Origin: a virus
Direction: 5' to 3' (one strand)
Length of the DNA: 64,000 bases
IMG/VR virus record: IMGVR_UViG_3300028030_000001
Coordinates: 1-64,000 of that record
Below the pieces are notes generated by a model that was not told the origin of the DNA, did not search any database, and worked only from the letters and a program-made list of their open reading frames with translations. Below are positions 2 to 46,530 of this stretch, piece after piece; positions within the stretch are counted from its first letter, which is position 1; each line of letters opens with the position of its first letter. The position numbers and the translations under genes were made by a program.

Positions 2-3000
2 ATACTTAGTCAACAACCAGAAAAAATACGTCAAGTTAGGGAGGAGTTAGCCAGACTAAATAAAACATACAATGTTTTAGATAGAGCTAAGAACAAATTT
101 GAGGCTCTTTTAGCGGCTAATAACAGGTATGGTAATGCAGCTAGGATTCTTTTAAATATAGTAGAGCAAGAGGGTAGAGGTGTAGATAATCTATTGTCTC
201 GCCTAAGTAGGTTAGATGTAGCATATAAAAAGGCTGCCGGTTCTATAGGTGTTATGCGTACTGCTGTTGATAGGCTTACACGCAGTTTTACTACATTAGC
301 CTCTTATTGGACAGCTTTCGCTGCTCTTAACGCTCTTACTAAGTCTTTTGGGTTTGCTAAACAGTCAGTCATAGAGTTTGACCAAGCATTAGCTGATTTA
401 CAGGCTATAACCAAGGCTACTGATTCAGAGACGGCTATGATGGGCGAAACTATCAAGGCTGTGGCTGAATCCACCAGGTTCACTACATCACAAGTTGCTG
501 AGGGTATGCGTATTCTTGGTCAGGCTGGTTTGTCCGCTTCGGAAGTTATACAAGTCATAGGGCCTGTAGCTGATTTGGCTACAGGTGCTTTGACATCTTT
601 ATCTACAGCAGCGGATTTAGTTACTACTACTTTACGAGTATTTAATGTAGAGGTAGGTAATTCTGAATCTATCGCTAACACATTTGCTAACGCAGTAAAT
701 GACTCAAAATTAACCATAGATAAGCTCAAAACTGCTCTTAACTATGTAGGTCCTGTTGCTGCTAGTGCTGGTGTTACATTTAAGGAATTGTCAGCTACTA
801 TGATGGTTTTGGCTGATTCTGGTATTCGTGCGAGTTCTATAGGTACAGGACTTAGACGTATGTTTGCCGAATTAGTAAGCCCATCAAAAAAATTTAAGCA
901 GGCTATAGACGATGCTGGACTTACTTTAGAAGATTTGTCCCTTAAATACAACAAGACGGAAGATGTTTTAGATAATTTGTCAATCGTACTTCAGAATACT
1001 GGAGTAGCTTTTGATGTTTTTGGTAAGCGTGGTGCTGCGGCTGTTCTAGCCCTTACTGAAAATACTGGTAAGTTTAAGGAGTTTGTGTCTGGTATAGGAA
1101 AAGCGTCTGCCGCAGCTAATATGGCTCAGACACAGATGGAAGGCTTATCTGCGTCTATAGAGCAACTTAAAGACAAATTATCAGTGTTAGCTGTAGATTT
1201 TAGCGAACGTAACGGTATTACTTATATTTTCAAAGGCTTATTAGAAGTAGTTAAAAAGCTGGCTGATACATTGATTTGGTTTGTTAATACTCCTTTAGGC
1301 AATTTAATAACGTCTTTTGCTACAGCAGTGGCTGCAGTTGTAGCTTTTAATGTTATCCTCAAAGTAGGTAAGGCATTAATTATTCAGTGGGCCGAATCTA
1401 TGGGGATAGCTACAGTAGCTTCTGAGGCATTTACTTTAAGTTTAGGTCCGGTTGGTTGGGCTATAGTAGCTGTTACTACTGTATTAGCTGGTTATGCTAT
1501 GTTTGCAAACAAAGCAGCTACCAGTACCAAGAACTTTAACGAAGAATTGTCGTCAGTAGATAGCATAGATAAGGCTATAAGTAGTTACAAGAAGTTAGAT
1601 AAAAGCCTTAATTCTGTCTATGATACAGCAAAAACACTTAAAAAATCTCTCTATGATGCGGCTAAGAATGGTCCAGAGGAGTTAGCTGAAAAAGCTACTA
1701 AGGCTGCTAATAGTATTGACGGACTTACTGGCGAATTATTAGACGGGGGCCGTGCTTTAGAGGAGTATCAAAGTAGTTTACGCAAATTTTCTGTAGATGC
1801 TTGGGCAAAAAAAGCAACTAAAGCTTTTGAAGAGCTTGATTCTTCCGCACGAGGCACTATGGATATATGGGATAGAGTGGGTTTAGCTATACAAGGTGGA
1901 ACTAAAAGTTTAGAGGAGTGGCGCTCATATATAGCTAATCTTGATCCTAATGATGTAGGCAAAGATACTATTAAAGAACTTACTGCTAAATTAGCAGAGG
2001 CTGAGAGTACAGTTAATGGTCTTATTAATAAATGGAGAGAGATGGGTATTCTTGATTTGTCTATGCCCGATAGCGCTCTTGTAGCGTTAGCAAATAAAGC
2101 TAACTTATCAGAAATATCCATAAAAAACCTTTTAATAAGATTTAATGAGCTTAAAGCTTCAGCTAGTAGTTCTGATATACTTACTAAATGGCAAAAAGAG
2201 TTTGAAGAAGGGAAAAGAACTTTATCATCTTTTATAGACGAATATGAGAGATTAGGAGGAACAGTTAAATCAGTAGAAGCTGATAATGTTCGTAGTTATG
2301 ATGAAGCTCGTAGAGCTTTAGTAAACCAAAAGAGAGCAGCAAAAGAGAGAGCGGAGTCTGAAATAAAAGCTGGAAGAGATGCAGCAGCAGCTTGGGCTGA
2401 TTACGCTAAAGAGGTAGTAAGATTACAAAACGAGGCTAGCAAGGTAATCCGTAAAGGTCAGGAAAACGAATTATTGTATCGTTTGAGACTGTTTAAGACT
2501 GAACAAGAAAATCATGCCAGAAAAGAACAGAATATAACAGCAAACTACAGAAGAGCTTCTGAAGAGAGAGCTATGCTTATAGCTAAAGAAGCCGACAGAA
2601 ATACTAAAGCATTACAAGAGATTTTTAATAAGCCTATAAATATGTCATCACAAATTAAGGCTTTTTCTGACTTAGCTGATAAGACTGAAAGTATTCAGCG
2701 TGATCTAGCTTTTAAGCTTGAAAATATTGAACGTACAAGGGCTGAACGTGTTTTTGATATAAACAAACGTTTGGGTGAGCGTTTAGCTGAAATAAGTAAA
2801 GAGGTATTAGACAGTAAAAGAAAATATTCAGCGGATATAATAGGTATAGAAGAGTCTATAGCTGATAGGATAAGAGCTATACAAGAAAGAAACGCTAGTG
2901 TATATGAAAAAGATGCGTTAGAGCGTGAGGCCGCAGAGCGAAAATACGCTAAAGCTATGAAGCTCATACAGGAAGCAGAAGCTTCAGGCGACAAAGAAAA

Positions 3001-4153
3001 GTTAGCTCGTGGTAAAGCTTTGATAGAGCAATATGCCACTATAGTTGAAAAATACAGAGATGAGCAGGAAGCTATAAACGAGCTTAAAAAAGCGGAAGTT
3101 CAGCTTAAAAAAGTTCGCAGAATAGAGTATCAGATGGAGAAACATGACATCTATCTGAAAAAACTTAAAACCGAAAAAACAGCGTTATACGATATAGATA
3201 AAGCTAATAATGATGCAGCCAGGTCATCTGAAAAAGCTGTGCATACAGCAGAAAAAGCTATAGATTCTGCTGTAGAATCTATAATAAGAGCCTATGAGCA
3301 AGCTAATAAATCTTGGAGTTTGAGACATCAGCAAGTTATAGACGATCTTTACGCAGAAGCTGAAGTTGCTAAAGAGACTATAGGTTCAATAGCTACAGAA
3401 TCAATGCCTGAAGTTGTTATTGAGTTTAAAGGCAGCGTTAATCCAGTAGGTCCGTTGCCTGATATGGTAAATTATATAAAAGACCTTATAAATACCATAT
3501 CTGATGATATTGCAGATGTTACTATTCATATAGTATTAGACGGTTATTCGTCTGTTATGTCATCTTTGTCTGATGTAAAATCAATGTTAGATAGTATAGT
3601 AGATAAAACTATAACTTTGTCAGTTAAAGTTTTGGGTGCTGAAAATGTAGTTAGGCTTATAGGCTTGTTAAGTCAGTTGAGAGACAGAACTATTAATGTA
3701 ACTACTGTGTATAGGACCATACATTTAAGAGAGGCTGGCGGCATAATACCAGATGTAGTTCAAGGATTTTCCACGGGTAATTTTGTTAAATTGCTTTCAC
3801 CGTATATAACTAAAGGTTCTGGGAATAAGGATGATGTACCAGCATTGTTAACTAAAGGTGAGTATGTTATAAATGCTGAAACAGTAAAGAAATTAGGTAA
3901 ATCCTTTTTCGATGCGCTTAACTTTGGCGTGGGGTTTAGTGATAAAATTGCTAATATGATACACAGTATTCCAAAATTTTCGTCAGGAGGATACACGGCA
4001 TCTAGTGTTTCTCCTGGTGTTGGTAATACTGATGTAATAGCTATAGAACTTACTACTTCTGAAGGAAAAGCTTCTGCACCGTTAATAACAACTAGAGACA
4101 CAGCCGAAGCACTTATTTATGAGCTAAAGAAAGCTAAGAGACTCAAAACATGA
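2..4153 (+). CDS. Phage tail tape measure protein (5' end outside window)
   Basis: Sets tail length and is threaded through the tail tube. The reading frame is open from base 2, so the true start lies left of the window; an internal TTG at 194 is not the start. The visible N-terminal part has the TP901-type core (FDQALADLQAITKAT, then a long Ala/Ser/Thr-rich helical stretch with TRFTTSQVAEGMRILGQAG). Two hydrophobic stretches follow near the middle (ITSFATAVAAVVAFNVIL and GWAIVAVTTVLAGYAMF), then hundreds of charged coiled-coil residues. The C-terminus has the usual tape measure ending, with DDVPALLTKGEYVINAE. Over 1,380 residues are visible, implying a long tail. It overlaps the next gene by 4 bases. 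Confidence 0.95.
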   Translation: MLSQQPEKIRQVREELARLNKTYNVLDRAKNKFEALLAANNRYGNAARILLNIVEQEGRGVDNLLSRLSRLDVAYKKAAGSIGVMRTAVDRLTRSFTTLASYWTAFAALNALTKSFGFAKQSVIEFDQALADLQAITKATDSETAMMGETIKAVAESTRFTTSQVAEGMRILGQAGLSASEVIQVIGPVADLATGALTSLSTAADLVTTTLRVFNVEVGNSESIANTFANAVNDSKLTIDKLKTALNYVGPVAASAGVTFKELSATMMVLADSGIRASSIGTGLRRMFAELVSPSKKFKQAIDDAGLTLEDLSLKYNKTEDVLDNLSIVLQNTGVAFDVFGKRGAAAVLALTENTGKFKEFVSGIGKASAAANMAQTQMEGLSASIEQLKDKLSVLAVDFSERNGITYIFKGLLEVVKKLADTLIWFVNTPLGNLITSFATAVAAVVAFNVILKVGKALIIQWAESMGIATVASEAFTLSLGPVGWAIVAVTTVLAGYAMFANKAATSTKNFNEELSSVDSIDKAISSYKKLDKSLNSVYDTAKTLKKSLYDAAKNGPEELAEKATKAANSIDGLTGELLDGGRALEEYQSSLRKFSVDAWAKKATKAFEELDSSARGTMDIWDRVGLAIQGGTKSLEEWRSYIANLDPNDVGKDTIKELTAKLAEAESTVNGLINKWREMGILDLSMPDSALVALANKANLSEISIKNLLIRFNELKASASSSDILTKWQKEFEEGKRTLSSFIDEYERLGGTVKSVEADNVRSYDEARRALVNQKRAAKERAESEIKAGRDAAAAWADYAKEVVRLQNEASKVIRKGQENELLYRLRLFKTEQENHARKEQNITANYRRASEERAMLIAKEADRNTKALQEIFNKPINMSSQIKAFSDLADKTESIQRDLAFKLENIERTRAERVFDINKRLGERLAEISKEVLDSKRKYSADIIGIEESIADRIRAIQERNASVYEKDALEREAAERKYAKAMKLIQEAEASGDKEKLARGKALIEQYATIVEKYRDEQEAINELKKAEVQLKKVRRIEYQMEKHDIYLKKLKTEKTALYDIDKANNDAARSSEKAVHTAEKAIDSAVESIIRAYEQANKSWSLRHQQVIDDLYAEAEVAKETIGSIATESMPEVVIEFKGSVNPVGPLPDMVNYIKDLINTISDDIADVTIHIVLDGYSSVMSSLSDVKSMLDSIVDKTITLSVKVLGAENVVRLIGLLSQLRDRTINVTTVYRTIHLREAGGIIPDVVQGFSTGNFVKLLSPYITKGSGNKDDVPALLTKGEYVINAETVKKLGKSFFDALNFGVGFSDKIANMIHSIPKFSSGGYTASSVSPGVGNTDVIAIELTTSEGKASAPLITTRDTAEALIYELKKAKRLKT

Positions 4154-8254: not shown

Positions 8255-9969
8255 TGGATATTGTTTTTAAAGGTTTAACACCTAAATACCCTGATAAGCA
8301 TTGTTTTAAGGACAAAGACTATAACAGTGTGCTTATCGAGTATAAGTCTGTTTCAGAGTGGCGGGCTGACAGCAGAGAAGGGCACAATATTAGCAAACGT
8401 GGCAATATAAATGTAGTAGATGTTTTTCTTATACCTTATGACTCCGTAGATGAAGTAAAGTTTATAAATGTAGAAGTAAGTTTAAGAAATAATGTAAACG
8501 CTTTTTTATTTTACGCTGATGAAAATACACCAAAAAGTTCAGGAAAAATCCATACATACTATGATCCAGAACCTACATTGACAGCAGAAGTGCCTAATAA
8601 CGATGACACAATTTCTCGTGAGCCTTATGACAAATATGTGGATTTGAATAAAAAAGCCTCTAATGAAGAGTCTGTAGCTTATAAAGAACCTTTTGAACCA
8701 CCTAAACGTGAAGTTGATGTATTAGTTGATACTGAAAATTACCCAGATAATACATTTGATATTCCTTTATATAACTATAAACTTGTAGTACCTGAGACTA
8801 TAGAAGGCACTACTGGATCAGTATTTGTATCAGATATAGATGACAGTTCATTTGTGTATTGTGATTTGTCCTATTATCCTGATTATAGTGTTGATTTAAA
8901 TTATGATTATAAAGACTTTATATCAGGAAAGAAATTTTCCTTAGACTATAATCCTGATGCTGGTTATGTGTCTGTACCTGATAATGCAAGTCAAAAATCT
9001 ATTAGCAGTATTCTTGTAAAAATGAGGTCTAACATTTCTGTGCATCCATGCCATAAATATGGTGCTACAAAGCATGAATGTAATGAAATATGTAAAAGCT
9101 GTTTCTATGTAATGTATGGCGGTTCGTGCAGTAGTTGGGCGTCTGATTCAAACGGGAACAAGGCAGAGTGCGCTGTAGTTAAATACGAAGGTATTTGTTT
9201 GTCTGATAAAACATCTGTGTGTCCTCCTGTGTTTGTCCAAGTCCCTTTGTCCACTGATAAGTGTACTCCAGAATTAAAAGCGTATATGGCTAGACAGGGA
9301 TTAACTAGCCCAACTGATTCTCAGTGTGCTAACTGGCAATATCAGTGGAACCGTCAGGCTGCCGTAAGAGAAGCCAGGTTGGGAGTAGCTCCAGGTTTAG
9401 GTACTGGTTTAAGGCACGAATGTTGGGATGTGTCTTGTTCTTGGAATGAGCCTTCTGTTGTATATTACCTACACAAATACATAAAAGTTCCTAATAGCGA
9501 CTACAATAGATTACACTTATTTGTGCTAGGTGATAATATAGATGATTTATCTATCAGAGGGTCTAATTTAAGTGTGTTTGATTACAGTATCATAGTTATT
9601 CCTTATAATTCTAATTATGATTTAGATAAAAAAGGTAAAGCTGTAGATACTATGTTACGAAGAGACTTGAATTATAGCTATGATAACAGCTACGATTTTG
9701 ATGAAATTAGGAGATTGAGTTTACAAGAATCCTATTTTTTCAGTTATCTTTACTGGAGTGATTATATGATAACTGAGGCTGTTAATAACGGTATGACAGT
9801 AGACTTAAATCCCCGTGGTGTAGCTCCTAACAATATTTATTATAGACCTACAATGTCTTTTGGTAAAAGTAACTATTTATTTGTATCTGTTGCTGTAAGT
9901 GTGAGTTCTGTTTTCAGTTTTGATGTTACTATACCTATACCTAAATTAGTCTTTATTGTGGAAAAATAA
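8254..9969 (+). CDS. Large tail-region protein with Cys-rich insert
   Basis: 571 residues, GTG start sharing its G with the previous TAG. Residues about 268-400 form a Cys-rich insert with about 14 cysteines, including CHKYGATKHECNEICKSCF and HECWDVSCSW. That is unusual for an intracellularly assembled virion protein and suggests metal binding or disulfides formed after release. The flanks are beta-rich and acidic. Function unknown; a tail-tip or adhesin role fits the position. Confidence 0.8.
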   Translation: MDIVFKGLTPKYPDKHCFKDKDYNSVLIEYKSVSEWRADSREGHNISKRGNINVVDVFLIPYDSVDEVKFINVEVSLRNNVNAFLFYADENTPKSSGKIHTYYDPEPTLTAEVPNNDDTISREPYDKYVDLNKKASNEESVAYKEPFEPPKREVDVLVDTENYPDNTFDIPLYNYKLVVPETIEGTTGSVFVSDIDDSSFVYCDLSYYPDYSVDLNYDYKDFISGKKFSLDYNPDAGYVSVPDNASQKSISSILVKMRSNISVHPCHKYGATKHECNEICKSCFYVMYGGSCSSWASDSNGNKAECAVVKYEGICLSDKTSVCPPVFVQVPLSTDKCTPELKAYMARQGLTSPTDSQCANWQYQWNRQAAVREARLGVAPGLGTGLRHECWDVSCSWNEPSVVYYLHKYIKVPNSDYNRLHLFVLGDNIDDLSIRGSNLSVFDYSIIVIPYNSNYDLDKKGKAVDTMLRRDLNYSYDNSYDFDEIRRLSLQESYFFSYLYWSDYMITEAVNNGMTVDLNPRGVAPNNIYYRPTMSFGKSNYLFVSVAVSVSSVFSFDVTIPIPKLVFIVEK

Positions 9970-12218
9970 TGGCGTATACCTTAGCTGATCTAACATTCGA
10001 TGTTTTTGGTAATTATTTTTATTATTACTGCAGACGTGTAGCTATAGGGCCAATACCATATAGTGCTAGCAGAGTAAGATTCAGAATGTTGTCAGAAGAT
10101 ATAGGGGACAACTCTAAAATATTGAGTGTTAGGTCTGTTTGTATAGGCATAGCTGACGATACAGCGTATTATCCAAATTTGTACGATTTGACAAAACCTA
10201 TTGTACAATGCACTTCAGGTGGTGAAGAATATTTTAATGTAAATGTAAGACCGTCTGGAACTGTAACTGATTGGGTTAATATCAATATTAGTGCGGGTGA
10301 CACTATACTAATTCAGTTTTACGAAGCGGCTAGTCTTAATGGAGGAGGTCAAGAAACTTATAGGCGATATTATTCTGGCGATAGTGTCCACGATGGCTTC
10401 AATAAGGTCGGTACTTGGTATTCTTACGGAACTTATGACCAGCTTTTAGGTGATAACAATAATTGGGGCAATAATCTTAATTGGTATCAACATGCCAGTT
10501 ATCCTTTTGTAGTTGATCTTATAGAAGGTATGAGAGGCCCTTTTAGCGTAGTTCAGCCTATATATACGGCTGATATACACGCTAAACAGGCAATTCATAC
10601 AGCAGACATACATTTTAATCAAAGCTTTGGTCCAGCTTATATATTCAGAAAGCACAGGGTAGAACCTTTTGGTTTGCTTATAGGCAAGCAATATAATGAG
10701 CCTTTCCAATATAACGGACTGTCATACCAAAATAAACAGTATTTTGGTATTTTATTAAGCAACTCTTTAGGTTATCAGTCATTACACAGCTTAGTAGAAA
10801 CAAGCACAAGACAGTCATTTCAATACCATAATCCGTTTAGTGTCAGACAAGCTATATCTGGAACCACTAGTATATCACCCAAGCGGTTTAGACAGATTTT
10901 TAGTATAAAAAACACCTACACTATACAGAATATAAATATTGGTCAGTTGTTTGGTATAGTACAAACAAGCTCTTTTTTACAAGATGTAGACGAAACTGAC
11001 ACATTATCACCAATAATGTTGCGTCAAAATATACGTGATTATGAAAGTAATTACATACATTTTAATCAGCCGTTTTCTATATACGAATCAATAGCCAATA
11101 AGCAGTATAGACAACTATTTAGTTTAGTAGACTACAATAAAGTAGCCTCACATTTTAATCAGGTTTTTGATCTGCGTGATAGCACAGAAATTGTAGACAA
11201 TAATACAGAAGTTCTACATAATGGTGTGGCAATAGATGTTTTTAGTTTTGACATAAGCATAAGTCAAGGCGATTTTTATTGGTCTTTTAATGCTACGTTG
11301 GACGATGTTGATGTCTATAACAATATAAATATAGGCGACTCAATATCAGTAGAGATCAATAATGGTGCTGTAACATTTAATTTTATAGTAGATGGTAAGA
11401 CAAAAACACAGTCAGTTTCTTCACTGAACTTAAATGTATCAGGGTTATCTAACAGTTCTTTGTTTGGCGGAGTATGGCATAAAAGCATAAACTACATAAA
11501 TAACACAGACACTACATTTCACACTGTAGCTATAGAATTGTTGGGTAACAGTAATATAGTATTTGATTTGGATGATTATTTCATAAAAGCTGGTACTTTG
11601 TCTGTAGAAGATAAAACACCCATACAAATAGTGTCTTTGTTAGCTGAGGTTCGTGGTGGTTTTTTACAATCTTTACCTGATGGAAGGGTTTTAGTAAGGC
11701 ATAAATATAGTGATACAGCTTTATTACACGAATATACGACTACTGATGATGTTTTTTCTTTAACAGAGAAACCAGTTCAAGCGGAAGGTTACAATAAAGT
11801 TACTATAATATCAGAATCTGGTGTGTCCAATTATTCCTGCATGTTAGTAGATAAACCAATAAGCAGCGTATTACATGAGATAGAGGTTTACGAAGAGCCT
11901 TTTAATAGTGTTCCGGCACTGAAATCTAACAATGTTCCAGGAAGTAGTCTGTGGTATAAAGATACCGTTACTGAGAAGGTTAGTGAGACGGTAACTATAA
12001 TTGATGGTTTGGGCAATATTTCATTTGCATCTTTTGGTGTTATAAATTATAGTTGGATTGGGGACAACTTAGGTAACATAACAGTTACTGGTACTGATGT
12101 TGTATCTTCAGTGGTAGGTAATTCGTTACTTAGTATAACTTACAACAAAAAATATCACAGATTTGTGGCCACAGGGGATTATAACACAAGTCTGTTAGTA
12201 TATAAGGAAGCAGATTAA
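9969..12218 (+). CDS. Large tail protein with internal Gln/Phe repeats
   Basis: 749 residues, ATG sharing a base with the previous TAA. The N-terminal ~180 residues are beta-rich. Residues about 190-410 hold a string of degenerate short repeats with a Q-x-F-x core (HFNQSFGPA, FNQPFSIYE, YRQLFSLVD, FNQVFDLRD). The C-terminal part (EDKTPIQIVSLLAEVRGG, then SLPDGRVLVRH) resembles the central baseplate or tail-tip proteins of siphoviruses in style. Likely a tail-tip hub or fibre-anchoring protein; this is inference from place and architecture. Confidence 0.8.
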   Translation: MAYTLADLTFDVFGNYFYYYCRRVAIGPIPYSASRVRFRMLSEDIGDNSKILSVRSVCIGIADDTAYYPNLYDLTKPIVQCTSGGEEYFNVNVRPSGTVTDWVNINISAGDTILIQFYEAASLNGGGQETYRRYYSGDSVHDGFNKVGTWYSYGTYDQLLGDNNNWGNNLNWYQHASYPFVVDLIEGMRGPFSVVQPIYTADIHAKQAIHTADIHFNQSFGPAYIFRKHRVEPFGLLIGKQYNEPFQYNGLSYQNKQYFGILLSNSLGYQSLHSLVETSTRQSFQYHNPFSVRQAISGTTSISPKRFRQIFSIKNTYTIQNINIGQLFGIVQTSSFLQDVDETDTLSPIMLRQNIRDYESNYIHFNQPFSIYESIANKQYRQLFSLVDYNKVASHFNQVFDLRDSTEIVDNNTEVLHNGVAIDVFSFDISISQGDFYWSFNATLDDVDVYNNINIGDSISVEINNGAVTFNFIVDGKTKTQSVSSLNLNVSGLSNSSLFGGVWHKSINYINNTDTTFHTVAIELLGNSNIVFDLDDYFIKAGTLSVEDKTPIQIVSLLAEVRGGFLQSLPDGRVLVRHKYSDTALLHEYTTTDDVFSLTEKPVQAEGYNKVTIISESGVSNYSCMLVDKPISSVLHEIEVYEEPFNSVPALKSNNVPGSSLWYKDTVTEKVSETVTIIDGLGNISFASFGVINYSWIGDNLGNITVTGTDVVSSVVGNSLLSITYNKKYHRFVATGDYNTSLLVYKEAD

Positions 12219-12718
12219 TGGCTGTAACTGCATCTTTAGTAGTTAAATTTGGATCAAATAACGAAGACGGATACTTATTAGCGGAACTCGATGAGGAAAG
12301 AAATAACGGTAGTTCTGGTCCGTTTTATTTCGGTACATCTTTCTTTTTTAGGGTTTGGAGCAATGTACCTTACACTATATCTACTACTTCTGGTATTGTC
12401 AGAGCAGAAGGTCTGTATATAACGAGCAAGGACTTGAAAGAAGAACTCATTTTTGTTGAGTCAGTAGAGGCTTCTGTTCGTTATCCTATATACAGACTGA
12501 AAGAATCAAAGTGGTTTGGTGGTTACGGTAGTTTGAACTATACTGGTCAGAAAGTTTTTGTAGACAAGGACTCTGGATTCTTAGGTGTTTGTCATATTAC
12601 TTATACTACTAAATACGATTTATGGCGATTTACGTCTGACGCCACACTAACAGGAGAAAATTATTCGGCAGTCATTTTGATTAAACAAACTGAAAATATG
12701 GTTTCTGCTGTAGCCTAG
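12218..12718 (+). CDS. Tail-region protein, function unknown
   Basis: 166 residues, coupled to the previous gene by a TAATG junction. Beta-rich and Tyr/Phe-rich, without a recognisable domain. The 29-base gap that follows carries an AAAAGG ribosome site for the next gene. Confidence 0.8.
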   Translation: MAVTASLVVKFGSNNEDGYLLAELDEERNNGSSGPFYFGTSFFFRVWSNVPYTISTTSGIVRAEGLYITSKDLKEELIFVESVEASVRYPIYRLKESKWFGGYGSLNYTGQKVFVDKDSGFLGVCHITYTTKYDLWRFTSDATLTGENYSAVILIKQTENMVSAVA

Positions 12719-18522: not shown

Positions 18523-19857
18523 GTGTCTATTGCGCTTGATTATATAACTATTAATGATTGTGAAGATTCAGGGTCTTGGTCCACTGTTGGTAATGCTAGT
18601 GGACTTGCCGATTCTGATTATCCATCTAAGCAGGGCAGTCAGTGTGTGGAATTTGACTGCTCTGCTACATCTACACCTTCAGGCATAGTTTGTGATAGTT
18701 ACTCTAGCAATATAGACATAGAAGTCTATGAGATAGGCGTTTGGTTTCTTAATCCAGTTGTTAACGAGAACGGTGATAGGCTGTTGCAAACAGGTGATGA
18801 TGCGCTCAGGTTGCGTCTATACGCCTCAAGCGGTAATTATGCAGATTTTTACCAACAACAGCATAAAAATTCTAGGGGAGAATATAACGGTGGGTGGCTT
18901 TATTTAAGAGCCTCTGGTTGTGTAGGATCAGAAGATGCTAATAGTGGAACATGGACTGCTACAGATGTGGCTTCTGTAAGACGTGTAGCTGTTCTTATCA
19001 AAACTTCTAATGATAACACAAACAAAAATGCTGCTGAATATGGTGTAGATTGGGTTAAGGCTTACAGTAAGATAACTGTAACAGGCTACAAAACAGGTAC
19101 TACACCATACAGTTTGCAAGATATATATGACGAAGACATAGATAAAGATTCTGGTGGGGGTGTGTGGGGTGTAGTTAACAAGTCTGATACTTATTACTCT
19201 TTTTATTCCGGCCTTGAATTTGGTGATGGTACGAATGCCGGAGCGTTCTCGACTTCAAATGAGTTTATATACTTAGACCAGTCATCTGATACACAGAATT
19301 ATGACATAAAGATAAAAAACAATTTTACTGTTACTCTGGGTATGAAAGTTACAGGGTCAGACGCAACTTACGCAAAAGATGGTACGCCTGTAACCGTGAA
19401 CACAAGCCCACGGTATCAATCTTCAGACTCAAGCAAAGTAGGTCCTCCGTCATTTATTGTTGAATCAGGAGGTGTATTCAAATGTTATGCGTCTTATATC
19501 TCTGACTTTAATATTGTCAATCTTGGGTCGGGAGGATCGTCTGTACTTGATATAGTTCGGTGTGATTTCTACAATAATAAAGCTGTTTATCTGAATTCGT
19601 CTAACCTTGATTTTATTCAGACTAAGTTACATTTTCCTGGCACTAACAAATCTAATATAGGCATAATTTACAGCATTAAATCATTTGAAGATATAACTGT
19701 GTTCCAGGCTACGGAATCGTTTACTGTAAGAACGAACATGACCATGAACAGGTATACAGCGTCTGATACAACTAATGACTTGGTAATACTTGACGGTGTT
19801 ACTGTTAATGTTATTGATTCGGATATTGACACAAGCAGTTTGAAACGTATTACATAA
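18523..19857 (+). CDS. Putative tail fibre protein, first of a tandem paralogous pair
   Basis: 444 residues, GTG start six bases after the previous stop. The N-terminal ~185 residues look like a jelly-roll carbohydrate-binding domain (NDCEDSGSWSTVGNASGL). The C-terminal ~250 residues form short beta rungs. It shares pattern and order with the next gene: SGLEFGDGTNAGAF, FIYLDQ and FIVESGGVFKCYAS here match SGLDIGNG, FFLLNQ and FVVQNGGTCKLYAT there. Probably a receptor-binding or fibre protein. Confidence 0.8.
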   Translation: MSIALDYITINDCEDSGSWSTVGNASGLADSDYPSKQGSQCVEFDCSATSTPSGIVCDSYSSNIDIEVYEIGVWFLNPVVNENGDRLLQTGDDALRLRLYASSGNYADFYQQQHKNSRGEYNGGWLYLRASGCVGSEDANSGTWTATDVASVRRVAVLIKTSNDNTNKNAAEYGVDWVKAYSKITVTGYKTGTTPYSLQDIYDEDIDKDSGGGVWGVVNKSDTYYSFYSGLEFGDGTNAGAFSTSNEFIYLDQSSDTQNYDIKIKNNFTVTLGMKVTGSDATYAKDGTPVTVNTSPRYQSSDSSKVGPPSFIVESGGVFKCYASYISDFNIVNLGSGGSSVLDIVRCDFYNNKAVYLNSSNLDFIQTKLHFPGTNKSNIGIIYSIKSFEDITVFQATESFTVRTNMTMNRYTASDTTNDLVILDGVTVNVIDSDIDTSSLKRIT

Positions 19858-21182
19858 TGGCTGATTTTAGTGATGATTATAGTATAGTAGGAGCTTCGTC
19901 TGATAACTTCAACTGTGACAGTACAGGTGGTTGGGGTACTGGCGGTAATGCTACATCTCTTGCTACGAACTCGGACAGGGTTGAAGGGTCTTATTCGCTG
20001 GAATTGACAGCCTCTAATTCAGGGGATTCCTACTGGTATCATGATATATCGTCAGGATATAGGTTTAAAATAACGGAAAAAGATTTACACTTTTGGTTTA
20101 AATACGTTAAAGGTAAAGGGGCTAATTTTCTTGTCCAAAACAGCACAGCGGTTGTAGTTAGATTGTATTTTGGCGGTACTACTAAATACGCTGATTATAG
20201 ATGTACTTCTGAAGGAGATATAGAGCTTAAATTTGGTTGGCAGCTTTTGTCTTGTTCAGGTACTAATCTACGTGGAGGTTCTGTAGGTGGAGGGCATAAC
20301 GGCGGTTCAGACTACGATTTAGACATATATCGTATAGAACTACATTTGAATTTTGCAAACAAAAACGACACGCCTCTTGCTATGGATTGCTGGTTTGTAG
20401 GAACCAAAATTGTAGTAACTAACGGAACAACATCTTCACCTTGTACGCCTGAAGATATTGTTTCGTATTCTGACACAGATAGATCAGCTTTTCCTTTAGG
20501 GCTTGCTAAACTTAACGGCAAACTTTTCGATCTTAAATCAGGTCTTGATATAGGCAACGGTTCTGACGGGGCAGGAAATGAGGGAGTGTTCAAGATTACG
20601 TCAAGTTTCTTTCTTCTTAACCAGTTAAGTGAAGAGGTAAAGCACCATATAACGGTTAAAAATTATAGCCAGTTTCAGAGTGGTGAGATTGAAACTGGAT
20701 CAGACGATAGTTATTACGTGCGAGGGTGTAAGATTGTTTTACCGGCTTCAAGATACTCGGATTTTGTTGTCCAGAACGGTGGAACTTGTAAACTGTACGC
20801 TACCAAACTTTACAGATTCAGAAATATTTATTTAGGTGCTTTATCTGATACAGGTTCTACGTGTGAAATACATTCAGTAGATTTTGATTCAAATGAATGT
20901 GTGTATTTTAGGGCTAACACACTTAATATGTCTGATGTACATATTCACGACAATCCTGCCAATATCGTAAATAATGCCTGTACATTTTCAGTGACTCCTG
21001 ACAGCGTATCTACTGTAAAAATTTACAGGTGTCCGCACGGAGCATATTTTGATGCTAATGTGTCTGTATCAGACTTAACTATAACCGACACTACTAATTA
21101 TGATATAGGTATAAAAGATACATATACTGTACACATATTGAATAGTGTTTTCAATGCTAATAAACTTTTGAGGTTTACCTAA
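19857..21182 (+). CDS. Putative tail fibre protein, second of the tandem pair
   Basis: 441 residues, TAATG junction with its paralogue upstream. Same two-part layout: an N-terminal jelly-roll-like domain (DNFNCDSTGGWGTGGNATSL) and a C-terminal beta-rung domain. Similarity to the upstream protein is clear in the C-terminal domain but sequence identity by eye is low, so the duplication is old. Likely fibre component. Confidence 0.8.
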   Translation: MADFSDDYSIVGASSDNFNCDSTGGWGTGGNATSLATNSDRVEGSYSLELTASNSGDSYWYHDISSGYRFKITEKDLHFWFKYVKGKGANFLVQNSTAVVVRLYFGGTTKYADYRCTSEGDIELKFGWQLLSCSGTNLRGGSVGGGHNGGSDYDLDIYRIELHLNFANKNDTPLAMDCWFVGTKIVVTNGTTSSPCTPEDIVSYSDTDRSAFPLGLAKLNGKLFDLKSGLDIGNGSDGAGNEGVFKITSSFFLLNQLSEEVKHHITVKNYSQFQSGEIETGSDDSYYVRGCKIVLPASRYSDFVVQNGGTCKLYATKLYRFRNIYLGALSDTGSTCEIHSVDFDSNECVYFRANTLNMSDVHIHDNPANIVNNACTFSVTPDSVSTVKIYRCPHGAYFDANVSVSDLTITDTTNYDIGIKDTYTVHILNSVFNANKLLRFT

Positions 21183-22018
21183 TGAATATAAAAGATGTTA
21201 CTTATGTAGGCTACAAGTCTATGGCTATATTGTGGGGTATCAGCAGTAATTACTGGGATATAGTTAAGGTATTCCGCAAACAAGCTGAGAGTAAACAGTC
21301 TGAATATGCTCCTGGGTCTACCGAAAATGTGCGGTGGGAAAAGATAAAAGATAGGTGGAATGATTTAGCTGTTCGTATTTCGTGGGAAATGAAATACTTA
21401 AACGGAAGTTATGGCGGTTACGGTCTTGGTGTGGAAAAGATGCTTTCACAACTATGGTCATATTTAGGCTATGACCACAAAGACTTACCAGCGTTTAGTT
21501 CATACAAACATTTGCCATTGTTGTTGCCTACAACTTTTAAAGTTGAGCCTCCCAATAATATAAGTAGTATAGAGCAACAACCTATTAGCAAAGAAGATAC
21601 TGAGTTAAGATCGCCAATACGCAACGAAAAAGAGTTTCAAGATCGGTATATCACACTGTTTAATGGTACAGTGTTTCGTATTTATACTAGTATTGGTCTT
21701 GGTATGTGGCTTAATAGTGTACTTGATAGAGACTCAGCAGATGACTATGCGTTAGATTTGTGGGACATAGTATTAGAAGGTTCCAGAAATTTTATGTATT
21801 ATAGTAGGTCTTGTTTGTCAGAATCGGAAGCTAGTAATGTACAGTATTTTGACGGTAAACAAACAGATACGCAAGAAAAAATGAGAATAAGAGCTAAATA
21901 CATAAGAAAACACGAAAATACTTTAACTGTCAATGGTGGAGTATACGCAATCAATAAAAGCAATATACCTGAACAATACATAAACAGTGTAAATACTTTA
22001 GACGATTTAAATGATTAA
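21182..22018 (+). CDS. Protein of unknown function coupled to the ligase-like gene
   Basis: 278 residues, TAATG junction upstream and 8-base overlap downstream. Largely helical with many Trp and Tyr (SSNYWDIVKVF, GMWLNSVLDRD), unlike the beta-rich fibre neighbours. No signal peptide or membrane segment. Its tight coupling to the lipoate-ligase-like gene makes it a candidate partner or substrate, but nothing in the sequence proves this. Confidence 0.75.
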   Translation: MNIKDVTYVGYKSMAILWGISSNYWDIVKVFRKQAESKQSEYAPGSTENVRWEKIKDRWNDLAVRISWEMKYLNGSYGGYGLGVEKMLSQLWSYLGYDHKDLPAFSSYKHLPLLLPTTFKVEPPNNISSIEQQPISKEDTELRSPIRNEKEFQDRYITLFNGTVFRIYTSIGLGMWLNSVLDRDSADDYALDLWDIVLEGSRNFMYYSRSCLSESEASNVQYFDGKQTDTQEKMRIRAKYIRKHENTLTVNGGVYAINKSNIPEQYINSVNTLDDLND

Positions 22019-22784
22019 AGGAAGACCTGTTTTATACACATACTATGAGCCATACATTGCTCCTGAATTTGCTTTAAGCTACATAGATGTTCTTACAGAT
22101 ATTGTGGTGTCAAGTAAGGAGCAGTGTTTTTTGAAGTTTGATACTTTAGCACCTGCTGGCATAATGCTAGGTAAAGGTCAATCAATAAAGTGTCTAAACA
22201 CTGAAAAAATAAGAGAAGATAAAATAAGAGTAACAAGAAGGCAAACTGGAGGTACTGCTATATGGGCTAATCCGTTTGATATAAGTTATACTATATGTGT
22301 GCCTCAGAAATATATAGACACGAAAGACAGAAAACAAAGCGATATTTTTTTGTATTTTACTAGCATATTCGGTAAGGCCATAAACAGGTTAGGCATAAAA
22401 GCTAATCAATCGAATTGGTCAACACACAGTGAACGTAAGTGTCAATTTTGTTTTTGCAGTTTAGATAAAGGGGAATTAACTGTAAACGGTAAAAAGTTAT
22501 GTGGAGGAGCGTTTAAAGCCAACTCTCGTATATATATGCAACAAGGCTATACGCTTATTAACACTAATCAGGCTGATTTGATGAAATATTTTAACTACAC
22601 AGGTAAAGATATTGCTTGCGAAAACCTCAATAATTTACTAAAACAGTCTGTAAAAATAAAAATGTTTGTTGACTGTGTTATAGAAGAGTTCAGCAAGATT
22701 TTTGATGTAACAATTAAACACAGAACAACAGAAGAAACACACTTATCTATGCTTAATATAGATAGGTTCATTGTTCAGGTATAA
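22011..22784 (+). CDS. Lipoate-protein ligase A/octanoyltransferase-like protein
   Basis: 257 residues of the BPL/LplA/LipB catalytic fold. These enzymes join lipoate, octanoate or biotin to a protein lysine. Seen here: VTRRQTGGTAIW at residues 74-85, corresponding to the RRxxGGGxV ligand-loop motif; NPFDISYTICV just after it, as in LplA/LipM; CFCS at 147-150 where LipM-type enzymes carry Cys; and NGKKLCGGAFKAN at 159-171, with K162 at the place of the LplA adenylate-binding lysine (GRKVSGSA). QQGYTLIN corresponds to HGT/SLL. The central HD and GSA residues differ from classical enzymes, so substrate and activity are open. It lies within a fibre gene block, overlapping the preceding gene. Confidence 0.8.
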   Translation: MIKGRPVLYTYYEPYIAPEFALSYIDVLTDIVVSSKEQCFLKFDTLAPAGIMLGKGQSIKCLNTEKIREDKIRVTRRQTGGTAIWANPFDISYTICVPQKYIDTKDRKQSDIFLYFTSIFGKAINRLGIKANQSNWSTHSERKCQFCFCSLDKGELTVNGKKLCGGAFKANSRIYMQQGYTLINTNQADLMKYFNYTGKDIACENLNNLLKQSVKIKMFVDCVIEEFSKIFDVTIKHRTTEETHLSMLNIDRFIVQV

Positions 22785-22786
22785 CG

Positions 22787-23917
22787 ATGTCGAGCATACT
22801 TAACAGACGATGGACATGGAAGGTTAACGTACAGAGTGGCGGTAGTGGTGTAAGTAGTGCCAAGGTTGCTCTGTGGGATGCTGACTCGTCATTTTCCTCA
22901 AGCCTTACAAATTCTTCTGGCGATATAGCTGACCAATCCATTTACGAAGCTATATACACAATAACAGATACAAGCACTATAGCTGAGACACTAAAGACTC
23001 CACATACTGTAGCCTGCCTTAAATACGGCCTGTCACCTGTTACGCTCTCAATCAATTTTATAGCCGCAAGAAAAGACACATTCTATATGTCTACAGATTC
23101 GTTTATAACACAAACGGATCAGACCACGGTTGATGCCTATACCGGAATCAGTATAAGTCACAGCAACAAGACCATAACGTTATCAGAATCACATACGATT
23201 GAGGAACTTTACGATTACTGTCAGAGCGAAGCATACAATAATCCACAGAAAGATTATCCTGACAGCATATTTAAAACAGTTGACGGTATAACATACCAGT
23301 CCTATTACACTATAATACTAACTTCTGGCACATTTAATTGTAGCAATAAAACAATAAACTTTGTTTCTGGTGAAAAGTTAAAATGTCAAGGGGGTATACC
23401 AGATAACATAAGTATAGTAGGCGATGTTGAGTGGGGTACATCTACATCACTAAGTAATTTCACTTTAGACGGAATATTGCAGTTTAATGATCCTGTTACA
23501 TTAGATTTATACAACAGCAGCGTAGACACAGTAACAACTGAATCAGGAGAAACAGTTATTATAAATCTAAGCAAATCAACCATAAACACTAATAACGATC
23601 CTACTAATATAACTATAAACAATTTTGTTGCTTTGGTGTTCAAAGTCACAGATATGGACGGAAATAATGTGCCAAATGCGGCTGTGTATTTGAAAGCCGA
23701 TTCAGGAGGTGCTTTAGCACCTGGCACTCAAATAGTAAAAACAACTACAGACAGTAACGGGGAGCTTACTGTTAACTTTAACTACACATCTGACCAGCCA
23801 GTGATAGGCCACATAAGAAAAGCAACATCAAATCCGTATTACAAAACTTATACATTATCAGGCACAATAACCAGCAGTGGTTACAATGTTTCTGCTAAAA
23901 TGGTAAAGGACGAATAA
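22787..23917 (+). CDS. Putative tail fibre protein with carboxypeptidase-regulatory-like domains
   Basis: 376 residues. The N-terminal ~95 residues (SGVSSAKVALWDADSSF, TNSSGDIADQ) and residues about 280-376 (VFKVTDMDGNNVPNAAVYLK, TTTDSNGELTVNF) are two carboxypeptidase-regulatory-like beta sandwiches. Between them is a short beta-helix-like part. Typical of a surface-exposed fibre or decoration protein. Confidence 0.75.
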   Translation: MSSILNRRWTWKVNVQSGGSGVSSAKVALWDADSSFSSSLTNSSGDIADQSIYEAIYTITDTSTIAETLKTPHTVACLKYGLSPVTLSINFIAARKDTFYMSTDSFITQTDQTTVDAYTGISISHSNKTITLSESHTIEELYDYCQSEAYNNPQKDYPDSIFKTVDGITYQSYYTIILTSGTFNCSNKTINFVSGEKLKCQGGIPDNISIVGDVEWGTSTSLSNFTLDGILQFNDPVTLDLYNSSVDTVTTESGETVIINLSKSTINTNNDPTNITINNFVALVFKVTDMDGNNVPNAAVYLKADSGGALAPGTQIVKTTTDSNGELTVNFNYTSDQPVIGHIRKATSNPYYKTYTLSGTITSSGYNVSAKMVKDE

Positions 23918-24114
23918 TGGACGATATTTCTAAGAAGAATTTTGTTACTATAGATGCTTGGCTCAAAAGAAACAACACCAGTATAAGCGAAGTATTAAGT
24001 AGATTAACAAAACTAGAAATTAAAGTGGCAGAACTTGAAACCGCTAATGCACAGTACAGAGAGCAAATAGCTATACTTAACGGGAGACTGTTTGGTGGAG
24101 GCCCTACAACATAA
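23917..24114 (+). CDS. Small coiled-coil protein
   Basis: 65 residues, ATG sharing a base with the previous TAA. Residues about 20-55 form a clear heptad coil (LSRLTKLEIKVAELETANAQ). The C-terminus ends GGGP. Small coils at this place often trimerise fibres or act as fibre chaperones; this is inference. Confidence 0.7.
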   Translation: MDDISKKNFVTIDAWLKRNNTSISEVLSRLTKLEIKVAELETANAQYREQIAILNGRLFGGGPTT

Positions 24115-25256
24115 TGGCTATAACAGTAGAACCTGGCACATATATAATTCATGTACCTAAAGATGATCTTACCTTGGTTCAATCTGATCCTACAGAAATA
24201 CGTGAGATGGACCTTAACTGGTTCAGAATGCAGTTGCGTGATTGGGAAGATAGTGAGGCAGGTATAGTTGAACCTGTTACGCATAATCACAATACTGAAG
24301 TTGTGTTAGGTGGTATAACCTATGCTAGAGTTATCGAAATATTGCCTCCGTACACTATAACATTCGAAGACGGCCAATATGCGGTTAATCTGGTAGGGGC
24401 AAATAGCAATGTCGGAGACAGAGTAAATGTTAATCAAGTTTCAATTCGTTCCAGTAATTCGGCAGGGCTGATTTTTAGTGATCTGTTAGAGTACGCTTCC
24501 TTTAATGGTTATGTAACTTACGATGAAGTTAATGGTGTTTCTGGTACTTTGATGCCTACAGGTACAGAAAAACAACCTGTAAATAATATGAGAGATGCCA
24601 AACTAATAGCAGAATATAGGGGTTTGTTTAAAGGCTATATAAAAGGTGGTGGGATTACACTTGACGGTACAGAAGATGTAGCATCATTTGAATTTATTGG
24701 TGAAGGCGGAGACAGGACAATAATTACTGTGCTACCAGAAGCTAACGTATCTAATTGTGTGTTTAGAAAAGCTTTCGTTACAGGTACTTTGGATGGAAAA
24801 TCAAAGCTTGTTCAGTGTGCAATAGGCGATCTTTCTTATATTAACGGATATGTGTACGAGTGTTTCTTGGTAGGAGGCACTATTTCGTTAGGTGGTAATA
24901 GGGCTGCGGCGTTTCTTAACTGTTGGTCTGATAACTCTATGCCGGGAACACCTGTTATAGACTTAGGCGGGTCTGGACAGCCTTTGTCTATGCAAAATTT
25001 TGTAGGGGAAATAACTCTTACTAACAAAACAGGCCCCGATTATGTCATGATAACATTAAGTGAAGGTTGTGTGTACGTTGATACAGCTACAATGACTAAT
25101 GGTACGCTTGTTGTGGCCGGTACAGGTCGTGTTATAGACATAGTAACAGGCAAAGATTTAGTTTCTGGTATGTATGGTAATATGGAAGTACAGAATCACG
25201 TAATATCCCTATCAAATATAGCTGGTAGGGTGTGGTCACAAAACGAGGCCCCGTAA
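24114..25256 (+). CDS. Conserved phage tail or fibre structural protein
   Basis: 380 residues. The opening (ITVEPGTYIIHVPKDDLTLV, EIREMDLNWFRMQLRDWEDS, THNHNTEVVLGGITYAR, YTITFEDGQYAVNLVGANSN) matches a widespread phage structural family in which the N-terminus is a virion-attachment part. Beta-rungs and Gly-rich turns follow from about residue 160. Likely a baseplate-attached fibre component. Confidence 0.8.
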   Translation: MAITVEPGTYIIHVPKDDLTLVQSDPTEIREMDLNWFRMQLRDWEDSEAGIVEPVTHNHNTEVVLGGITYARVIEILPPYTITFEDGQYAVNLVGANSNVGDRVNVNQVSIRSSNSAGLIFSDLLEYASFNGYVTYDEVNGVSGTLMPTGTEKQPVNNMRDAKLIAEYRGLFKGYIKGGGITLDGTEDVASFEFIGEGGDRTIITVLPEANVSNCVFRKAFVTGTLDGKSKLVQCAIGDLSYINGYVYECFLVGGTISLGGNRAAAFLNCWSDNSMPGTPVIDLGGSGQPLSMQNFVGEITLTNKTGPDYVMITLSEGCVYVDTATMTNGTLVVAGTGRVIDIVTGKDLVSGMYGNMEVQNHVISLSNIAGRVWSQNEAP

Positions 25257-26222: not shown

Positions 26223-26722
26223 GTAATTGCAGCTATCCTTGGCAGATTTCCGCTGTAGCTATGTTTATGATGTTGTTAACAGGTGTTATAGTGGTTTATG
26301 CCCCTGTATGGTTATACTGTGTGTTCATGATGTATATAGGGGCTGAGTATATGACATTGGCTGGAGGGTATCTGTTTTGGCTTAACAGACGTAAAGAGGA
26401 TTATTACGAAGAGACCAGTGTTCTGTATAGTATTGTTATAACTGATACACGTCTTATTCTGATGTGTTCGGTTATAGATATGTACAATTTGCTTGTTATA
26501 CAGCCTGAATTGTGTGTAAATTTTTCTAATTCTGTATTCATTTCCGTACTTATAGATAGACTGTTGTTGAGTGCCTTGGTTATACACGCTATACACGCTA
26601 TTCTTATGTATGAGCGTTTGTCCGGTGTAGAGTTCGGTCTGTACATGCCTTTGTGTAAGGCTATAAAGAAAATAATGACTCGTATAAGAGGTATTAAATA
26701 TGAAGATTGCCATACTGGATGA
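26219..26722 (+). CDS. Multi-pass membrane protein, function unknown
   Basis: 167 residues from the ATG at 26219 (ATGA overlap). Four hydrophobic segments, including VAMFMMLLTGVIVVYAPVWL and LLLSALVIHAIHAIL, with a basic C-terminus. Follows a smaller membrane protein and overlaps the receiver-domain gene by 23 bases. Could work in lysis or superinfection control; no direct evidence. Confidence 0.7.
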   Translation: MSNCSYPWQISAVAMFMMLLTGVIVVYAPVWLYCVFMMYIGAEYMTLAGGYLFWLNRRKEDYYEETSVLYSIVITDTRLILMCSVIDMYNLLVIQPELCVNFSNSVFISVLIDRLLLSALVIHAIHAILMYERLSGVEFGLYMPLCKAIKKIMTRIRGIKYEDCHTG

Positions 26723-27224
26723 TGTTAAAGGTGTAAGAGATAGTATAAAAACTTATTTATTGCATCATACATTCAAAAAGAGTGAGGATATAAGAGTAGA
26801 TACTATATGTAGCTATTTCGATATAGAATCAAGTCAGCTTCTTGACTACGATCTTTTGATTATTGATGAAGCTATGGAAAAGGTGAATGGGAGCGAAATA
26901 GTGTCTCATTTATGGCACATGGTAGATAGAGACTATGACAAACTTCCGTGTATTGTATTTGTTACAGGTTTCTATAGAGGTGTGCTTGATGAAAGACTGC
27001 GTAAAACAGGTTTTGACAGAAATAAATTGAGGTATGATGTGCTTCAAAAACCGTTTAAGTTTATTGATCTTAAAAAGGTCATATATGAAATATGTCCTGA
27101 ATATGTGGCTTTTTATGCGGATGACGAACCTCTTACAGTTAAAGAGTGTGTCAAGAGCTTTATAGAAAACGTACTATTCGGGATATTGCCAATACCTACC
27201 AATTTAGGAGGAGTAGCACCATGA
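26700..27224 (+). CDS. Stand-alone CheY-like receiver domain protein
   Basis: 174 residues. Receiver domains accept a phosphoryl group on an aspartate from a histidine kinase. All key positions are visible: the acidic pocket D7-D8 (IAILDD), the phosphoacceptor D56 (DLLIIDEAM), T89 (IVFVTGF) and K117 (LQKPF). The length of the first ~130 residues fits one complete domain. The final ~45 residues are not an obvious DNA-binding output domain. The gene overlaps its membrane-protein neighbour upstream and the secreted-protein gene downstream. Probably competes with or rewires host phosphorelay signalling; the function is inferred. Confidence 0.85.
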   Translation: MKIAILDDVKGVRDSIKTYLLHHTFKKSEDIRVDTICSYFDIESSQLLDYDLLIIDEAMEKVNGSEIVSHLWHMVDRDYDKLPCIVFVTGFYRGVLDERLRKTGFDRNKLRYDVLQKPFKFIDLKKVIYEICPEYVAFYADDEPLTVKECVKSFIENVLFGILPIPTNLGGVAP

Positions 27225-28025: not shown

Positions 28026-28150
28026 AACGTAAAGTAGAAGTACGAGGCCAGAAACACTACAGAACTTCTATAGGTAATTCTTCTCACTCACGTCCGCTCA
28101 ACAAACATAAGCGGCGTATGTTCAAGAAATATAAAGGCCAAGGAAGATGA
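28022..28150 (+). CDS. Very small basic protein (42 residues)
   Basis: ATG overlaps the previous TGA and its own TGA overlaps the next ATG, so it fills an otherwise empty gap in a strictly coupled operon. GGAGG lies 6 bases upstream. The product is highly basic (MKRKVEVRGQKHYRT, HKRRMFKKYKGQGR), suggesting nucleic-acid or membrane binding. Confidence 0.65.
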   Translation: MKRKVEVRGQKHYRTSIGNSSHSRPLNKHKRRMFKKYKGQGR

Positions 28151-28656
28151 GTTCATTCACTCGCCCACTCAAAACCGAAGTCTTATCTAAATCGAGACGG
28201 ATTTTACAACCGTTCCGATTCTGGTTAGGTAGAAAATACTGTACACCTTATGTTACAGTTCCGTATGGACTTGTGTTTGATGGGGCGTCTATACCTAAGT
28301 TTTTGTGGCCTGTAGTCGGTCATCCTTACGATTCTGATTTTGTTCAGGCAGCGGCAGTACATGACTACCTGTATCAGAACCTGGGTCGGGTTACGATTCC
28401 TATAGGGTTCTGTGACTATACGCCTACTATACTTTATGTAGGCATGTTCAAGACTAAGAAGCTGGTAGCTAACTGGCATATATCAGGATCGAAGCTTGTC
28501 ATACAGTACACTCGAAAAGGTTGCGATATGATTCTTTACCTTGGGTGTAAAGTGCTTCCATGCAGTAACTGGAAAGCTAATATAATATACGAGGGTGTCA
28601 GGTTAGGTGGCTGGCACGCTTGGAATAAATACAAAAGGAAGGTAAAAAATGACTAA
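28147..28656 (+). CDS. DUF1353 family protein
   Basis: 169 residues. The segment YVTVPYGLVFDGASIPKFLWPVVG, then AAAVHDYLYQN, is the signature of DUF1353 (residues about 38-80), a phage family often located near lysis genes. The C-terminal Trp/Tyr-rich part is less typical. Biochemical role of the family is not established. Overlaps both neighbours by 4-8 bases. Confidence 0.8.
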   Translation: MSSFTRPLKTEVLSKSRRILQPFRFWLGRKYCTPYVTVPYGLVFDGASIPKFLWPVVGHPYDSDFVQAAAVHDYLYQNLGRVTIPIGFCDYTPTILYVGMFKTKKLVANWHISGSKLVIQYTRKGCDMILYLGCKVLPCSNWKANIIYEGVRLGGWHAWNKYKRKVKND

Positions 28657-31068: not shown

Positions 31069-31545
31069 TCAATTCACCATAATCATTGCCATATTAAAAT
31101 CGCTTACTGTATAGGCAGAACTAACGAGAAATTCTCTCAACTCTTCACCGCTCTGGTCAAGTTCATAATATTTCCCGTAATAAACTGCCCGGATACCTGC
31201 TTGTATTATAGCCTTCAAACATTCGTTACAAGGCATGATAGATACTACCATTATCGCTGATTCACAAGCGGTTCCATATTTGGCACACTGCAATAAAGCA
31301 TTCTTTTCCGCATGTTCACACGGTAAGTCTTGTAATACTGTGCCGCTCTTTCTATCAGGCTTCCAACAAGTTTCATTACAGTTAGGGAACCCTGACGGAA
31401 GTCCGTTATAACCTGTAGCGATGATACGCTTGTCTCTTACTATTACACAACCTACCTTACGCCTTACACAATGGGATTTCTCCGCTACTGTGTCCGCTAC
31501 TCTCAGAAAATGTGTAAGCCAATCATGTCTTATGATACCACTCAT
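31069..31545 (-). CDS. Deoxycytidylate (dCMP) deaminase
   Basis: 158 residues; converts dCMP to dUMP, the substrate of thymidylate synthase. Zinc motifs present: C-x-H-A-E as PCEHAEKNAL (H78, E80) and MPCNECLKAI (C106, C109). Length and order match ComEB/dCMP deaminase type proteins. Supplies the ThyX encoded about 3.5 kb upstream on the same strand. Good GGAGAGG site before the ATG. Confidence 0.95.
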   Translation of the reverse strand: MSGIIRHDWLTHFLRVADTVAEKSHCVRRKVGCVIVRDKRIIATGYNGLPSGFPNCNETCWKPDRKSGTVLQDLPCEHAEKNALLQCAKYGTACESAIMVVSIMPCNECLKAIIQAGIRAVYYGKYYELDQSGEELREFLVSSAYTVSDFNMAMIMVN

Positions 31546-45510: not shown

Positions 45511-45539
45511 ACAATAACATACGTTTTACAGTATGTCAA
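45511..45539 (-). promoter_or_regulatory. Leftward early promoter with palindromic spacer
   Basis: Minus strand TTGACA (45539-45534), 17-base spacer, TATTGT (45516-45511). Nearly identical over 30 bases to the promoter at 51066-51094. The spacer region carries the inverted repeat ACATAC-N8-GTATGT. Confidence 0.8.
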
Positions 45540-46342: not shown

Positions 46343-46347
46343 AAGTC

Positions 46348-46530
46348 TCAATACACAAGTGATTCGTTCAAGTCCAATACACGCAACAAATTGTCTATCT
46401 GCTCTACGTCAGGCATGTTTTCATCACCGAAAAGTTCTTCATACCGTTCCTGAAGATTAGCGCATGTAACAGGCGAAAAAAACCAGCCTGCGCCACGTTC
46501 TATGTCGTCAGCTAAATTTATTTCGATCAT
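46348..46530 (-). CDS. Small acidic protein, function unknown
   Basis: 60 residues, GAGGAGAC site before the ATG. Acidic and helical (DENMPDVEQIDNLLRVLD). Between the two methyltransferase genes; no motif. Confidence 0.7.
   Translation of the reverse strand: MIEINLADDIERGAGWFFSPVTCANLQERYEELFGDENMPDVEQIDNLLRVLDLNESLVY

Follow-up and report, generated by a model that had tools for sequence, protein, structure and literature searches.

A LipM-like acyltransferase gene in a late, appendage-like gene block of a tailed phage

The phage record and its late gene block

The window, as we call the whole stretch of DNA analysed here, is 64,000 nt long and belongs to an 83.4-kb virus record in IMG/VR. 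The record is a genuine tailed phage, with putative head genes lying outside the window (Table 1) and genes for DNA polymerase, primase, DNA ligase and exonuclease also present. The C-terminus of the tape-measure protein and the ORFs at 9969-12718 resemble distal tail genes of vB_VhaS-a and LV6, two siphophages of Vibrio, and this points to a probable siphovirus. Host contamination of the record was considered and rejected, since the gene described below lies between phage modules (tape measure, polymerase, primase, terminase and others) and matches the structural arm in codon usage. Third-position GC is mostly 0.24-0.33 in positions 1-30000 compared to 0.35-0.53 in 30000-64000, which suggests that the structural and replication arms differ in history or selection. 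Genes on the minus strand encode a DNA adenine methyltransferase-like protein (45536-46351; PRK11524, E 3.3e-28; CcrM, E 7.9e-26 in three stretches), a cysteine-rich dCMP/cytidine deaminase (31069-31545; PF00383, E 3.8e-24) and an SNF2/DEAD-type helicase (43179-44609; PF00176, E 3.3e-22). A perfect inverted repeat of about 18 nt (CCAGATTCGCTCAGAATC; 62825-62842 and 62891-62908, with a 48-nt gap) accounts for five overlapping 14-nt matches, compared to 0-3 matches in all per shuffled window.

The gene of interest is an intact ORF with an ATG start that encodes 257 amino acids. The block that contains it is encoded on one strand and is flanked by the distal tail genes on one side and lysis-like genes on the other. 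An earlier annotation made from the sequence alone (the first-pass annotation) had described it as a lipoate-ligase-like gene overlapping its neighbours in a tail-fibre cluster. The overlap is confirmed: the ATG falls in the last codons of the upstream 278-aa ORF, with which the gene shares 8 bp (ATGATTAA), and 3 bp separate its end from the start of the next ORF. The 278-aa protein has no Pfam match, no PHROG match and no homologue, and its single-sequence AlphaFold2 (AF2) model was too poor to use. Further upstream, the two tandem paralogues belong to no known family and are probably virion appendage proteins. Neighbours in the block are beta-rich and have weak beta-helix, Ig-like and pectate-lyase-like matches in Pfam; those to PF02369 (E 2.1e-5) and PF20585 (E 0.003), in the genes downstream, are both under the curated cut-off. 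The cluster is therefore best described as a late block of appendage-like genes, no member of which is confidently annotated as a fibre. Its fibre identity would follow from its position after the tape-measure and distal tail genes, from the paralogues and from the weak matches. Two other plus-strand genes were recognised nearby: 26700-27224, which adjoins genes for small membrane proteins in the late/lysis-like region, encodes a response-regulator receiver-like protein (PF00072, E 7.7e-5, under the curated cut-off), and 28147-28656 encodes a DUF1353 protein (PF07087, E 2.9e-12).

The codon usage of the acyltransferase gene (z 2.07) equals that of its neighbours (1.15, 1.8, -0.49 and 2.15), and the gene is thus probably a long-term resident of the phage genome. 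Codon usage gives no support to a recent transfer from a host; the GC content of the gene is low (0.328 compared to a mean of 0.391). Three further features were considered and set aside. A 14-nt inverted repeat flanking the gene (21964-21977 and 22770-22783) was not taken to be meaningful, with about 0.75 such repeats per shuffled window, promoter-like sites that might mark an internal promoter are no commoner than in shuffles, and a role in a defence system has no PADLOC match.

Table 1. Positions of genes and active-site features in the phage record
Feature	Position	Strand	Basis or remarks
Tape-measure protein gene, in tail module upstream of acyltransferase gene	194..4153	+	PHROG tape measure, E 2.2e-63
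Two tandem paralogues, virion-appendage-like (444 and 441 aa)	18523..21182	+	26% identity over full length, E 2e-26
Orphan 278-aa gene, 8-bp overlap with acyltransferase gene	21182..22018	+	Candidate partner or substrate; AF2 pLDDT 40.5
LipM-like acyltransferase gene	22011..22784	+	257 aa; PF21948, AF2, Foldseek, LipM clade
RRQTGG loop, residues 76-81 (substrate/phosphate-binding loop of the family)	22236..22253	+	Sequence, alignment; motif definition PMC3904984
Ala86 codon	22266..22268	+	Alignment; His in 23/23 LipM and 16/17 LplA rows
Cys147 codon	22449..22451	+	Alignment; Cys in 23/23 LipM and 0/17 LplA rows
GKKLCGGA motif, residues 160-167, with conserved Lys162 and Gly165	22488..22511	+	Alignment; motif definition PMC3904984
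Gln178 codon	22542..22544	+	Alignment; His in 40/40 LipM and LplA rows
Downstream appendage-like genes: 376 aa (Ig-like stretch), 65 aa, 380 aa (pectate-lyase-like)	22787..25256	+	
Putative portal gene	69282-70955, outside window		Translation read by eye
Putative terminase gene	71035-72906, outside window		Translation read by eye; two viral-contig homologues
Putative S49-type protease gene	73342-74730, outside window		Translation read by eye
Putative major capsid gene	75448-76677, outside window		Translation read by eye

Fold and family of the 257-aa protein

The 257-aa protein has the lipoyl ligase A/B superfamily fold, as the first-pass annotation had read from its motifs. Matches to PF21948 (LplA-B_cat, the lipoyl ligase A/B catalytic domain; E 1.9e-21, residues 18-227) and PF03099 (BPL_LplA_LipB; E 1.6e-6) are both above the curated Pfam cut-offs. 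The AlphaFold2 model has a mean pLDDT of 77 and a pTM of 0.81; its input was an alignment of 21 sequences composed of family members, and the model is therefore not fully independent of the sequence assignment. When this model was compared with solved structures in the PDB by Foldseek, T. acidophilum LplA was the best match (E 1.4e-17, TM 0.75 on the query), with further matches to E. coli LplA, other ligases, LipB (E 5e-11) and biotin ligases (about 1e-7); the best LplA structures were 2c8m and 1x2g. The score against TIGR00545 (51.7 bits) falls far short of the equivalog cut-off of 280. A PHROG scan gave no significant family for the protein or for E. coli LplA and LipB used as queries, which indicates that this library holds no recognisable phage family for the protein.

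To place the protein within the superfamily, cellular relatives were gathered from genome contigs and 838 genomes (four phyla). By sequence comparison, the nearest of these are LipM-type octanoyltransferases rather than ATP-dependent LplA ligases. The top relative is a LipM-type 254-aa ORF from a Bacteroidota group (E 3.3e-18), followed by ORFs from the FCPU426 group (3.3e-16 and 4.0e-14) and a Spirochaetota group (2.5e-15). The closest relatives are LipM-length ORFs with the cysteine and the GKK motif, and many of the nearest adjoin gcvPB and lipA in glycine-cleavage/lipoyl-synthase operons. In the best tree the phage protein falls within the LipM clade (SH-aLRT 95), and its terminal branch is 2.55 long where the median is 0.51. 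A grouping with LplA (p 0.258) or with LipL (p 0.228) was not rejected by the AU test. Because of the long branch and these AU results, we give the motif evidence more weight than the tree. Considered together, the sequence, motifs and best tree point to the cysteine-dependent, ATP-independent LipM group over the lipoate ligases. The lipoate-ligase-like label thus holds for family and fold, but the cysteine, its spacing and the best tree make LipM octanoyltransferases the nearest members.

Kept and replaced residues of the active site

We aligned the protein with 23 LipM and 17 LplA rows and also compared two LipL rows. The RRxTGG loop and the NGKKLCGGAF lysine region with its following LIN strand, both noted in the first-pass annotation, were found as R76-R77, T79 and G80-G81 and as G160-K161-K162, G165 and A167, then LIN. 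Cys147 has the LipM spacing (C+13 is G160 and C+15 is K162), with two LipM rows carrying a one-residue insertion between the cysteine and GKK positions. Cysteine content is high, at 3.5%, and includes C144-x2-C147-x-C149 and C164. The position aligned with C147 is presumably that of the catalytic cysteine of B. subtilis LipM, reportedly described by Christensen and Cronan.

The pocket is partly conserved: C147, K162 and RRQTGG are kept, and two histidines are replaced by A86 and Q178. Neither the LipM-specific cysteine nor the missing histidines had been noted in the first-pass annotation. The alignment indicates that the substrate pocket has clearly been remodelled at these near-invariant positions, and activity may have been altered or lost as a result. 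Both histidines are also absent from the LipL-type rows, so their loss is not proof of a dead enzyme, and activity in this family probably does not require them.

LplA motifs have been defined as RRXTGGG..HD and G(R/K)K(I/L/V)SGX(A/G)Q (PMC3904984). For the first, the phage protein has RRQTGGTAIWAN, without the third glycine and HD; for the second, GKKLCGGAF keeps the core lysine and glycine and lacks the serine and glutamine. It is similar to LplA of E. coli and T. acidophilum in fold and in the RRxTGG/GKK motifs, but has no C-terminal domain, has a cysteine absent from LplA, and is missing the GRND as well as the HD motif residues of LplA. LipM and LipB are single-domain proteins like the phage protein (PMC6067878). 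With LipM of the B. subtilis type (octanoyl-ACP:GcvH) it shares single-domain length, RRxTGG, the position and spacing of the cysteine, GKK and its place in the best tree; however, identity is about 25-30%, the phage branch is long, and LipM genes are found in gcv/lipA operons whereas the phage gene is in a tail-appendage operon. As the cysteine is at the LipM position with GKK after it, and the pocket histidines of LipM (the H of the loop motif and that of QHG) are replaced, we file the protein as LipM-like rather than as LipM. The LipL amidotransferases belong to the cysteine-dependent group and have residues other than histidine at both positions, but the two LipL rows read xRNSGG in place of RRxTGG and lack the CF dipeptide, and LipL is not nearest to the phage protein by score or best tree.

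Searches for an acceptor, a donor and viral relatives

A search of the phage record detected no lipoyl/biotinyl domain, GcvH or acyl carrier protein (ACP). The ligase C-terminal domain PF10437, which accompanies LplA either fused to it or as a separate LplB/LplA-C protein, was also absent from the record. A regular-expression search of the phage for lipoyl-type acceptor motifs gave nothing convincing. Any acyl donor would therefore come from the host, and the acceptor would be a host protein or else a phage protein in which no lipoyl domain can be recognised.

Scans of viral contigs, with queries drawn from the acyltransferase or its motif, the ORF upstream of it, the terminase or a tail gene, returned no acyltransferase relative. 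This absence is weak evidence, since the scans were driven by short peptide patterns and several of these were badly placed. There was no plasmid match, and PF21948 was absent from vB_VhaS-a and LV6, which are distant phages with similar tail genes. Matches to acyltransferase, LipM and LplA queries in phage collections are unannotated or bacterial-looking records, including 2-kb to 209-kb wastewater 'phage' assembly clones and Salmonella contigs, and were treated as contamination with the bacterial enzyme and not as relatives. Many 'phage' records of the public collection (OR84xxxx/OR85xxxx, MT83xxxx and PQ520395) contain LipM, LplA or LipL genes of bacterial type and resemble host contamination. 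Foldseek against BFVD matched the fold to a 'Lipoate-protein ligase A' of Siphoviridae ctVCm11 (E 7e-8), an uncharacterised protein of ctg6c78 (E 3e-11) and a lipoate-protein ligase of Bodo saltans virus (E 2e-14), which have the LplA-type fold in common with the phage protein at 12-15% identity. BFVD entries A0A8S5QKT7 and A0A8S5URE8 are the same-fold proteins of ctVCm11 and ctg6c78, both metagenomic siphophages. The LplA-type fold is thus not unprecedented in phages. Our search of the literature on lipoate ligases and lipoylation in phages, and on lipoate genes as auxiliary metabolic genes, returned nothing relevant, and we know of no functional study of a phage protein with a lipoate-ligase fold.

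Possible roles of the acyltransferase

We tentatively favor, with a little less than even confidence, the interpretation that the gene encodes a diverged and repurposed cysteine acyltransferase of the LipM group that acts late in infection and whose acceptor is a phage late protein, either an appendage or the product of the overlapping orphan gene. In the proposed mechanism, Cys147 would be loaded with a medium-chain acyl group, which is octanoyl for the cellular enzymes, by host ACP or a similar thioester, with the phosphopantetheine/phosphate part held by the RRQTGG loop and Lys162, and a lysine of the acceptor protein would then attack the thioester to form acyl-lysine. Acyl-transfer chemistry by a Cys/Lys dyad has been published for LipB (PMC9307952). 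A late phage protein would be the most likely acceptor because of the late appendage block, the orphan-gene overlap and the far divergence from cellular LipM; the LipM cysteine with its spacing and the neighbour-like codon usage are also consistent with this role. The 278-aa protein is a candidate partner or substrate. In sulfur oxidisers, the dedicated single-domain ligase sLpl serves a private acceptor, LbpA, outside classical metabolism (PMC6067878). This system shows by analogy that a single-domain member of the family can be dedicated to one acceptor, although sLpl is a ligase encoded with its lipoate-binding protein (PMC6067878), and none such was found in the phage record. A86 and Q178, the branch length, the AU results and the lack of a lipoyl-type domain and of a viral relative in our searches argue against this interpretation. 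A narrower version, in which a LipM octanoyltransferase has been turned to fatty-acylate a lysine of the phage's own tail appendage or of the 278-aa protein, is fairly unlikely in our estimation.

Alternatively, this could be an auxiliary metabolic gene whose product adds octanoyl or lipoyl groups to GcvH or to E2 lipoyl domains of the host. Glycine cleavage or 2-oxoacid dehydrogenases would then stay active late in infection, and the position of the gene among appendage genes would be incidental. The LipM affinity of the protein, the gcvPB and lipA neighbours of its cellular relatives and the retention of Cys147 and Lys162 are all compatible with such a role. Because the phage itself encodes no lipoyl domain, the simplest known acceptor would be one from the host. 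We nevertheless consider this role somewhat unlikely, given that two histidines kept by every LipM relative are gone from the pocket, that the gene is located in a late appendage block, and that the phage record yielded no gene for a lipoyl domain, H-protein, ACP or ligase C-terminal domain. The same substitutions, together with the very long branch, could instead reflect a catalytically dead or binding-only derivative, in which the tail-appendage operon reuses the fold as part of the virion, to help assembly or to bind a ligand. Non-enzymatic reuse of this kind would account for the location, but the retention of C147, K162, RR76-77, T79, GG80-81, G165 and A167 at about 25% overall identity is unexpected for an inactive site, and we regard this outcome as improbable. 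An ATP-dependent single-domain lipoate ligase or a LipL-type amidotransferase, in place of an ACP-dependent octanoyltransferase, would agree with the AU tests, with the existence of single-domain ligases in sulfur oxidisers (PMC6067878) and, for LipL, with a cysteine and the absence of both histidines. The best tree and motif spacing favor LipM, however, and the phage has no C-terminal ligase domain and carries a cysteine found in none of the LplA rows, making this assignment very improbable.

If the predicted acyltransferase is active on a virion protein, phage tails would carry a post-translational modification of a new kind, in which an enzyme of the lipoate family attaches a lipid-like group covalently to the virion. 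If it acts instead on host GcvH or E2 domains, protein lipoylation would join the processes under phage control. In addition, its catalytic pair, set in a remodelled pocket, could be a useful natural variant for understanding donor and acceptor specificity in the LipM group.
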